Positions 27,804 to 29,595 of a DNA stretch of 64,000 bases are shown here, piece by piece. This DNA is from Vibrio sp. CB1-14. Its GTDB lineage: Bacteria; Pseudomonadota; Gammaproteobacteria; Enterobacterales; Vibrionaceae. How positions within the stretch are numbered: the first letter of the stretch is position 1; every line of letters starts with the position of its first letter. The position numbers and the translations under genes are program-made. The notes below the pieces were generated by a model. It worked only from the letters and a program-made list of their open reading frames with translations. It was not told the DNA's origin and searched no databases. The stretch is from positions 868,001 to 932,000 of the forward strand of contig NZ_CP115921.1 in the NCBI RefSeq assembly GCF_040412085.2, in the 5' to 3' direction.

Positions 27804-28859
27804 TTAGTAGCCTTTTTTACGATGGCGACTTTCAGACTGCACCGACTTGATGAACTTACCAAACTCTTTGGATTTGCTGCGTTTTTCCGCAAGTGATGCA
27901 CTGTTTCTCGCTTGCTCGCGCTGCAGTTTGAAGTAGTTCTCCATTCGTCTCTCATCAAGATCACCGGCTTCCAATGCTTTGCGCACTGCGCAGCCTGGCT
28001 CGTTGGTGTGCTGACAATCACTAAAGCGGCATTGGTTTATCAGCGCTTCAACATCACTAAAGGTTTCGGCTAGGCCTTCTTCACTGGCCGTGAGCTGAAT
28101 TTCGCGCATTCCCGGTGTATCTAGCAGCAATCCACCCTTTGGCATCTTGTGCATTGAGCGAGACGTTGTGGTGTGGCGACCTTTACTGTCGTCTTCACGA
28201 ATGCCGCCTGTCGTCAGAGTTTGCGTTTGCATCAGTGTATTCACCAATGTCGATTTACCGACCCCTGATGATCCCATAAACGCCACGGTTTGCCCTGTTC
28301 CGCACCATGATTGCAGTCCTTGTAGCGACTCCACATCAAGCGAATTAACCGTTTCTATCATCAAAAATGGGTCAAGGGATTGCACTTGCTGGCGCTTGTC
28401 TTCGACATCGTCACACAAGTCGGCTTTGGTGAGTACGATAACCGCTTCTGCTTTGGCTTCATTCACTAACGTTAGGTAGCGCTCGATGCGACTAAGATTA
28501 AAGTCAAAGTTGAGCGAGCAGACGATGAACACCGTATCGACGTTCGCAGCAATGTACTGCTCTTCGATTTTTGAGCCCGGCGCCTTGCGGCTGAACAGTG
28601 ACTTTCGCTCCAGCAAGCGAACAAACCCCTGTTGCTCGTCAAGGAGTAGCCAGTCTCCCACCGTCATCGCTGGGTAGCTAATGTGGTGTTCAAGGTGAAA
28701 CTCTTGTTGCTCAGTACAAACGATATAACCGCTGCGATGATGAGCAATCACTCGGCCGAAAATAATGCCGTCATACTCTTCTAGCGTGAGCTGTTGTTGA
28801 AAATAGGTTTTCCAGCCAAGTTCGTTGATCGCGATTGGATGGGTAAAAATAGAATGCAT
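27804..28859 (-). CDS. RsgA/YjeQ-type circularly permuted GTPase (probable paralogue)
   Basis: A 351-residue protein with an N-terminal OB-like domain (residues ~35-95), then a GTPase domain with motifs in permuted order: V-L-T-K-A-D (G4) before G-S-S-G-V-G-K-S-T (G1), T-T-T-S-R-S (G2) and D-T-P-G-M (G3). A C-terminal zinc-knuckle (C-R-F-S-D-C-x-H-x5-C) and a basic tail follow. RsgA proteins act late in 30S subunit assembly. The housekeeping rsgA of gammaproteobacteria usually sits with orn/psd; this isolated copy with a divergent N-terminus is probably a second form. Its Shine-Dalgarno AGG can be masked by an upstream AGTACCT, and a 16-codon ORF precedes it. Confidence 0.85.
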
Positions 28860-28863
28860 TGTT

Positions 28864-28962
28864 AGTACCTAAAATTTGGTCTTATTTTTATAAGGGTCAG
28901 GTACTTACCGATGTAAGTGTGTGCAGGTTGCACAAGACCCCGGTTATGAACACCGGGTAAAG
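28864..28962 (-). promoter_or_regulatory. Structured leader RNA before the rsgA-like gene
   Basis: In transcript order, CTTTACCCGGTG (28962-28951) can pair with ACCGGG downstream (28944-28939), or at 11 of 12 bases with CACCCGGTAAAG inside the upstream small ORF (29037-29026). Then come stems GTGCA/TGCAC (28933-28921) and ACTTAC/GTAAGT (28918-28903). The last overlaps AGTACCT (28905-28899), complementary to AGGTACT (28870-28864), which contains the gene's Shine-Dalgarno. Competing stems plus a masked ribosome-binding site are the form of a translational attenuator. Folding was done by eye. Confidence 0.55.
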
Positions 28963-29004
28963 AAGGGGAGGGGTTAGGAAACAGTATCTGTTGTTGTGCT
29001 TCGC

Positions 29005-29055
29005 TCAACCGTTAGTTTTAGCCAACTTTACCGGGTGGGTATGAATAACAATCAT
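29005..29055 (-). CDS. Putative 16-residue leader peptide
   Basis: The frame reads MIVIHTHPVKLAKTNG and stops at TGA. Its ATG is preceded by GGAGGA at five-base spacing, one of the best ribosome-binding sites in the window. Codons 6-10 lie within the segment that can pair with the downstream leader. Peptides of this size in front of structured leaders usually act by ribosome position or stalling rather than as free products. It ends 145 bases before the rsgA-like start. No homologue is known to me. A chance ORF cannot be excluded, but the site strength argues against it. Confidence 0.5.
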   Translation of the reverse strand: MIVIHTHPVKLAKTNG

Positions 29056-29100
29056 GAAAATCCTCCAATGTAGTGAGTGAAAACAGGCTAATAATAGCAG

Positions 29101-29126
29101 CGCAGCGCTGATTGTACAGCGCTGCG
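29101..29126. terminator. Perfect 10-bp hairpin after the PCuAC gene
   Basis: CGCAGCGCTG (29101-29110) and CAGCGCTGCG (29117-29126) pair fully around a six-base loop, 16 bases beyond the stop of the copper chaperone gene. No T-run follows on the minus strand, so it may be a leaky terminator or 3'-end stabiliser. If leaky, the copper operon could read into the leader of the rsgA-like gene. Confidence 0.55.
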
Positions 29127-29142
29127 ATATAGAGCATTGAGA

Positions 29143-29595
29143 TTAGTGATGTTTATGATGCTTCATACCCGACATGACTTTTTTCACTGGCACGGTCAGG
29201 ACTTTCACTTCACCATTGGCAAAGTTTAGCTCAACGTTAATGGTGTCCCCTTCTTTCATAGGCGCTTTTACATCCAATAGCATCACATGCAGGCTGCCAG
29301 GCTTAAGGATGGTTTTACCATTGGCTGGAATGTCGATGGTGTTCACTTGACGCATCTTCATGACATCACCTTCTTTGATAACATCGTGCAGTTCAACCAC
29401 GCTTGACGCTTGTGAGCTTGCGCTAACGATAGTACGAACTTCATTGCCGGTATTTTCAATGGTGCCGAATACCGCGCTGGTTGTTGCATTTGGTGGTGTT
29501 GCGCGAGCGTACACATCATTCACATCGATAGCGGCGTGTGCCATCGAAAGAGGCGCTAGGGCGATTGCAGATAGAAGGAGTTTGTTGAGCTTCAT
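29143..29595 (-). CDS. Periplasmic copper chaperone, PCuAC family
   Basis: A 150-residue exported protein with a signal peptide ending A-H-A (about residue 21) and the PCuAC copper site: H of E-L-H-D, M-K-M-R, and the H-x-M pair in G-S-L-H-V-M. The histidine-rich tail (H-H-K-H-H) adds metal ligands. PCuAC delivers Cu(I) to the CuA centre or, with SCO, to cytochrome oxidase assembly. It lies 62 bp after the SCO gene in the same direction, the usual pairing. Confidence 0.88.
   Translation of the reverse strand: MKLNKLLLSAIALAPLSMAHAAIDVNDVYARATPPNATTSAVFGTIENTGNEVRTIVSASSQASSVVELHDVIKEGDVMKMRQVNTIDIPANGKTILKPGSLHVMLLDVKAPMKEGDTINVELNFANGEVKVLTVPVKKVMSGMKHHKHH

Follow-up and report, generated by a model that had tools for sequence, protein, structure and literature searches.

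We propose that the RsgA-like GTPase gene on the minus strand of the window, the 64,000-nucleotide stretch of Vibrio sp. CB1-14 DNA analysed here, is controlled by a translational attenuator, a reading we consider probable. A short leader ORF sits in the gap between a PCuAC copper-chaperone gene and the GTPase gene (Table 1), and it is accompanied by five RNA arms that can pair in alternative ways, the last of them being the gene's own Shine-Dalgarno (SD). Both the ORF and the complementary arms are conserved across relatives, which supports the original prediction of a leader-ORF attenuator acting at this SD. Comparison between loci shows that the ORF, its Met-Ile-Val (MIV) start, the arms, their competition and their linkage to the gene are maintained features.

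Table 1. Features of the leader and neighbouring genes (window coordinates).
Feature	Coordinates	Strand	Remark
RsgA-like GTPase paralogue, 351 aa	27804..28859	minus	PF03193, E 1.3e-50
Arm 5, AGGTACT, the gene's SD	28864..28870	minus	pairs with arm 4
Arm 4, AGTACCT anti-SD (28905-28899) and TGACCCT, partner of arm 3	28893..28905	minus	pairing statistics
Hairpin ACTTAC/GTAAGT	28903..28918	minus	halves at 28918-28913 and 28908-28903; near relatives only
Arm 3, ACCGGGGTC	28936..28944	minus	partner of arm 2 or arm 4
Arm 2, CTTTACCCGGTG	28951..28962	minus	11 of 12 bases pair with arm 1
Pyrimidine-rich tract before arm 2	28962..28978	minus	recurs in relatives
Leader ORF, 16 codons, MIVIHTHPVKLAKTNG	29005..29055	minus	read directly and conserved in relatives
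Arm 1, CACCCGGTAAAG, inside the ORF (+19 to +30)	29026..29037	minus	pairs with arm 2
Met-Ile-Val start of leader, ATG ATT GTT	29047..29055	minus	conservation
Leader SD, GGAGGA	29061..29066	minus	also precedes leaders of relatives
Putative promoter, TGTACA, 16 nt, TATTAT, preceded by TG (extended -10)	29091..29118	minus	pattern, 1 found against 1.0 expected in shuffles (weak alone)
PCuAC copper-chaperone gene	29143-29595		PF04314

The gene belongs to the RsgA GTPase family (PF03193, 172.1 bits against a cut-off of 30) and to the broader family TIGR00157 (163.6 against 100). With the equivalog model for the small ribosomal subunit biogenesis GTPase RsgA (NCBIfam NF008931) it scores 177.6 bits, below the cut-off of 360. 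A separate RsgA with a better score is encoded on contig 1 of the same genome (G000:C1:3388763), and the window gene, which is 35% identical to it over residues 101-333, is therefore a paralogue. The nearest loci, 96-98% identical, are those of Vibrio maritimus and V. variabilis. Within the genus, 166 of 227 genomes carry the paralogue (E <= 1e-70); within the order 69 of 394 do, representing 24 of 114 genera (E <= 1e-65).

The predicted ORF and its GGAGGA are present in the window, and the ORF recurs in relatives. An ORF starting ATGATTGT lies upstream of the paralogue at 138 of 164 loci, mostly Vibrio; some species are represented twice in the 164, which derive from two collections, and the 138 include the degenerate L112, L114 and L124. 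The remaining 26 loci are without it, one of them (L119) having an MIA variant. When 24 of these 26 were scanned for other SD-preceded short ORFs (L042 and L043, near copies of L041, were left out), the scan returned the MIA variant and one chance ORF inside a gene. Among 46 further loci of the order, 44 from other families and two from another genus of the same family, 27 have MIV-type leaders as judged by eye, a count that takes in L198 (MFV, outside the pattern) and leaves out L203. Leader ORF and arms also occur at 5 of 23 loci from other orders of the class, the pattern matches at L269 and L278, which have no arms, being judged chance. L188 and L190 share one leader. By our own count the leader extends over 13 families of Gammaproteobacteria: that of the window, eight more of the order (f6, f7, f8, f10, f12, f17, f21, f23) and four from the wider class (f61, f80, f131, f183).

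The 210 loci gave 151 unique leaders once four without a recognisable start (L056, L079, L223, L227) and one that was too long (L114) had been dropped; L203, among the 151, has neither SD nor arms. Residue 2 is Ile in 150 of the 151, residue 3 is Val in 149 and codon 2 is ATT in 147, figures to be read in the light of search patterns that themselves contained the conserved MIV codons. Departures include MFV in L198 and ATA codons in L197 and L229. From position 4 on the peptide is variable (entropy 2.2-3.3 bits), and strong peptide conservation is limited to Met-Ile-Val. A search of the window's genome for a second leader copy (SD plus ATGATTGTW) gave six matches, equal to the reversed control, and was discarded.

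The five arms allow two mutually exclusive folds: 1:2 with 3:4, in which the SD is freer (ON), and 2:3 with 4:5, in which it is paired (OFF). Three of these pairings had been predicted, namely arm 1 with arm 2, arm 2 with the element just downstream (arm 3), and AGTACCT with the gene's SD; all are present in the window and recur in relatives, 1:2 with compensatory changes. The competing stems of the original prediction are thus real, but its wiring was incomplete, as it missed the pairing of GGGGTC in arm 3 (28941-28936) with GACCCT in arm 4 (28898-28893). Similar pairing occurs in most relatives, and it links the leader arms to the gene's SD. Two other proposed stems exist in the window but are not general: the ACTTAC/GTAAG pattern of the small hairpin is found at 17 of 164 loci and GGTCTT/AAGACC at 5 of 164, in both cases near relatives. 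Folding of this region is more stable than that of most shuffled versions (z -2.0; 6 of 200 as good). One fold of a slightly longer piece had a minimum of the 2:3 type, which counts against the proposed switch. Pairing of ATTGT with the gene's start region is visible by eye in some loci and not in others.

Arm statistics were drawn from the 135 of 151 leaders that have the arm 2/3 anchors, reduced to 116 (arm 1:2) and 125 unique sets. The first paired base of arm 1 is most often at +19 (57 of 116 arm sets; range +18 to +31). Arm 1 pairs with its own arm 2 at a mean energy of -17.1 kcal/mol compared with -12.9 kcal/mol for permuted partners, and none of 5000 permutations of the 116 sets was as good. 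Since permuting arms among loci leaves relatedness in place, a second test used 15 representatives below 70% identity, where none of 20000 permutations was as good. Among 49 window-type leaders (39 unique arm pairs), pairing of arm 1:2 is 82.1% for own partners against 77.9% permuted, the best of 2000 reaching 80.5%. One base pair in this group holds throughout, as C-G in 23, T-A in 13 and T-G in the remaining 3, and in L052 another has changed from C-G to T-A. At distant loci the arms are altered yet matching, as in arm 3:4 of L274 (GGGATTC:GAATCCC) and arm 1:2 of L229 (ACCGAGCA:TGCTCGGT).

The connection to the SD is supported in the same manner. Pairings 3:4 and SD:arm 4 are each better than permuted (0 of 5000 in each case), and the arm 4 sites favoured by arm 3 and by the SD overlap in 99 of 125 sets. 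In an alignment of 30 compact leaders the ON structure has 84.2% of its cells paired, against 77.3% when shuffled (0 of 500) and 28-50% when slid along the alignment. Cells changed on both sides number 23, compared with 7.9 for shuffled alignments (0 of 500); for base pairs showing such changes the signal is weaker, 7 against 4.8, a count reached by 35 of 500 shuffles. The OFF structure has 90.3% of cells paired (23-60% when slid) and weak covariation, 28 of 500 shuffles being equally well paired, and for the same 30 compact leaders RNAalifold by itself predicts 2:3 along with three pairs of 4:5. Against dinucleotide shuffles, the number of the 15 representatives in the best 5% was 11 for 1:2, seven for 4:5, four for 3:4 and one for 2:3, and short stems taken one at a time are therefore weak evidence. 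What is kept across relatives is a set of mutually exclusive stems, one of which hides the gene's SD, the pattern by which erm- and cat-type attenuators are judged.

A ribosome covers about 15 nt ahead of its P-site codon, and base-pair probabilities were computed for the 135 leaders while the nucleotides under such a footprint, placed at a series of positions, were kept from pairing. The mean probability of 1:2 is 0.77 without a ribosome, 0.73 with one on the AUG, 0.70 at codon 2 and 0.64 at codon 3, and it falls to 0.07 at codon 6. Pairing 2:3 rises over the same interval from 0.10 to 0.58 and pairing of the SD with the arm 4 region from 0.32 to 0.61. Opening of the SD, at a modest 0.27 in the modelled ribosome-free ON state, decreases to 0.17 at codon 6 and to 0.15 at codon 9, where it lies below the no-ribosome value in 115 of 135 leaders. 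A control mask of equal size placed elsewhere, possible in 66 of the 135, leaves a mean opening of 0.25; SD opening drops under it too in 47 of 66, the mean drop being 0.014 compared with 0.121. By these results the MIV codons would be, in the average leader, those where the ON fold largely survives the presence of a ribosome.

The effect is less marked in the clade to which the window belongs. In the window's own sequence 1:2 has a probability of 0.55 without a ribosome, 0.18 with one on the AUG and 0.33 at codon 3, and SD opening goes from 0.24 to 0.07 once arm 1 is covered. The window's own folding supports the early-stall idea only weakly. In L032 the probability of 1:2 drops from 0.73 to 0.06 at codon 3, and L034 shows a closed SD throughout.

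We infer that ribosomes on the leader control the gene in the cell as follows. Arm 1 lies within the ORF, just past the expected reach of a ribosome parked on the AUG. As long as arm 1 is free, 1:2 would form, arm 3 would pair with arm 4 and the SD (arm 5) would be freer, which is the ON state. Ribosomes at codon 6 and beyond would cover arm 1, allowing 2:3 to form, and the freed arm 4 would then pair with the SD to give the OFF state. Absence of initiation on the leader would leave the gene ON, and a ribosome held on the MIV codons would do the same in the average leader, less clearly in that of the window. The direction of the switch is a prediction of the folding, and it is opposite to the erm-type logic first proposed, in which stalling on the leader would feed back on housekeeping 30S assembly. 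An RsgA-family gene does stand behind a leader ORF, but covering arm 1 is predicted to close that gene, not to open it. Moreover, the gene is a paralogue beside a separate, better-scoring RsgA, so feedback on ribosome assembly does not follow, and we regard such a loop as unlikely.

In 96 of the 151 unique leaders there is an extended -10 element whose end lies 29-63 nt upstream of the ATG; base shuffles would give 8.6%. The leader is thus probably at the 5' end of the mRNA, with the transcript probably starting some 25-30 nt before the ORF. An alternative is that the folds determine whether transcription terminates, intrinsically or through Rho, ahead of the gene. The last 15 nt leading up to arm 2 are 73% pyrimidine, compared with 55% in the remaining spacer (n=124), and this tract, downstream of the ORF, might act as a Rho site; it could also be a contact for S1 or for the leader SD, whose pairing with it is better than random in 65 of 104 cases. 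Runs of at least five T follow arm 3 in just 2 of 135 loci and arm 4 in 2 of 126, which means that the leader does not in general include an intrinsic terminator. The sole terminator-like site found near the window leader is upstream of it, and arm 5 is the SD itself, all of which makes control at the level of termination distinctly improbable. A further alternative would have the leader ORF constitutively deliver ribosomes to the gene by reinitiation, the stems serving to shape the 5' end. Leader ORFs may indeed raise expression through reinitiation, according to the accessible portion of one report (PMC4833913). However, the ORF stop and the gene start are 145 nt apart in the window and further apart in some other loci, and simple coupling would give no reason for exclusive arms to stay matched from locus to locus; we consider it very unlikely.

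The translational attenuator remains our preferred reading, and its association with the gene was followed with an RNA covariance model of the leader (R1) in genomes of the order, genus and class. At E <1e-3, R1 returned 38 matches across the 394 genomes of the order, 37 of them next to an RsgA-like gene and one next to a TipAS gene (by eye). Across 227 genomes of the genus 82 of 83 matches are at the paralogue (by eye, with six opened); the remaining one, in G129, sits on a different contig of an assembly that is fragmented. The class, with 274 genomes, yielded three strong matches besides that of the window, all at the gene. Three weaker class matches (E 0.001-0.009) were taken as chance, and a weak match in G448 was rejected on reading the sequence. 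R1 misses some leaders (for example in G009), and its silence elsewhere is therefore no proof of absence.

The TipAS case comes from a single genome, G324 (L262:1058-1519, minus strand), in which an MIV leader, MIVSNTNWARRKLVL, with recognisable arms precedes a gene for a TipAS antibiotic-recognition protein (PF07739, E 5e-14). TipAS proteins bind thiopeptide-type drugs. No RsgA paralogue was found in this genome at E <= 1e-65. The neighbour of the TipAS gene resembles an MFS efflux gene (by eye).

Rfam 15 has no match at gathering score anywhere in the window and one chance-level match (E 2.7) in 28800-29150. None of the matches listed in a search of literature without subscription journals or preprints describes the leader in its title or the start of its abstract. 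Amino-acid attenuators (trp, leu, his) use a cascade of pairings 1:2, 2:3 and 3:4 with arm 1 in the leader ORF. The present leader shares this cascade and the position of arm 1, but it has no run of regulatory codons and no terminator, and it adds arm 5 at the SD. In erm and cat attenuators there are four arms, and a ribosome on arm 1 opens the gene. Like ermC, ermB and cat, the leader here combines a short SD-bearing ORF with exclusive stems, the last of which hides the downstream SD. It differs in having five arms, for which reason occupying arm 1 is predicted to close the gene, in conserving MIV only, before arm 1, and in its target, an RsgA paralogue.

Among these drug-inducible translational attenuators, ErmB is the subject of PMC8274638. 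The closest system in logic that we found is vmlR of Bacillus subtilis, a resistance factor acting on translation, in which, as far as the available text of PMC9226507 goes, a ribosome on an upstream ORF selects the RNA fold and induction is also caused by ribosome assembly defects. A ribosome on the upstream ORF would likewise choose between folds here; unlike this leader, which is almost without T runs, vmlR adds an intrinsic terminator (same part of PMC9226507). Streptomyces has two RsgA/EngC paralogues, SCO6149 and SCO5211, and one of them (SCO6149, going by naming order) is reported among the WblC- and tetracycline-dependent genes in the section available of PMC7157823. This WblC/WhiB7-controlled case resembles ours in concerning an RsgA paralogue, a likeness by family and not by established orthology, but control there is by a transcription factor and not by a leader (PMC7157823, same section). 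Of the other papers, in the parts available, PMC9966474 and PMC8839378 concern other bacteria, PMC13194095 names a different GTPase and PMC9032327 contains no paralogue; the main texts of PMC2659441 and PMC2965389 have neither 'GTPase' nor 'engC'.

That this leader also precedes a TipAS gene, in a single genome, favours a response to translation inhibitors. Together with the response of the Streptomyces RsgA paralogue, it suggests blocked initiation or early elongation, for example by such an inhibitor, as the likeliest signal, and the RsgA paralogue would then be an inducible ribosome-care factor. We tentatively extend this to a new class of attenuator in Gammaproteobacteria that may sense whether ribosomes pass the first three codons, although we hold this fuller account to be less than an even prospect. 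fMet-Ile-Val would be the smallest stretch at which ribosomes arrest when initiation and early elongation are inhibited or defective, the five-arm wiring would turn early arrest into the ON state, the paralogue would be an inducible GTPase of ribosome protection or repair, and the leader would be a portable module, set also before a TipAS drug-binding protein.

The same switch may instead be a dedicated sensor, not a general readout of initiation, in which the fMet-Ile-Val chain or its tRNAs stall for one small molecule or uncharged tRNA. The near-invariance of Ile, Val and the ATT codon, with everything after them varying, fits such a specific arrest, and the TipAS linkage would suggest a drug. 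The table of leader peptides, however, contains no run of Ile/Val codons like those of amino-acid attenuators, near-invariant codons could equally serve initiation or RNA needs, and a stall at codon 3 weakens arm 1:2 in the window's own sequence. We see this version as possible but would not expect it to be correct.

If the attenuator is real, it would constitute a widespread ribosome-sensing RNA switch in the 13 families counted above and would tie a spare RsgA to translation stress. The conserved MIV and the arms would then be a readable sensor, through which the triggering inhibitor and the role of the RsgA paralogue become testable.

Several loci lack the leader or may be losing it. L112, L114, L123 and L124, all from one Vibrio group, seem by eye to be in the course of loss, with MIVA remnants and unclear arms; L123 keeps an SD-like site without the ATG. 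Leaderless RsgA paralogues on plasmids of V. alginolyticus and Shewanella aestuarii (L341, L342) are preceded, in the same order, by genes for a GNAT acetyltransferase and a helix-turn-helix protein, and the plasmid copies H9 and H10 have no ATGAT(T/A/C)GT leader. In a quick tree of 80 paralogues rooted on the other RsgA, the leader label requires 6 changes compared with 17.2 in shuffles, two of the labels (L269, L278) being judged chance; this is consistent with an old leader lost several times. Ten leaderless genes abut or overlap the upstream PCuAC gene, six through TAATG (L072, L073, L074, L088, L103, L104), three through TAAATG (L065, L066, L070) and one through ATGA (L148), which suggests that an operon with copper-handling genes replaces the leader. 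L305 (genome G065) has a leader, but the paralogue frame downstream breaks off after 190 codons and may belong to a decaying gene. At L188 (genome G298) an insertion of some 260 nt, bounded by inverted repeats, separates arm 4 from the gene, and the sister locus L190 is without it.
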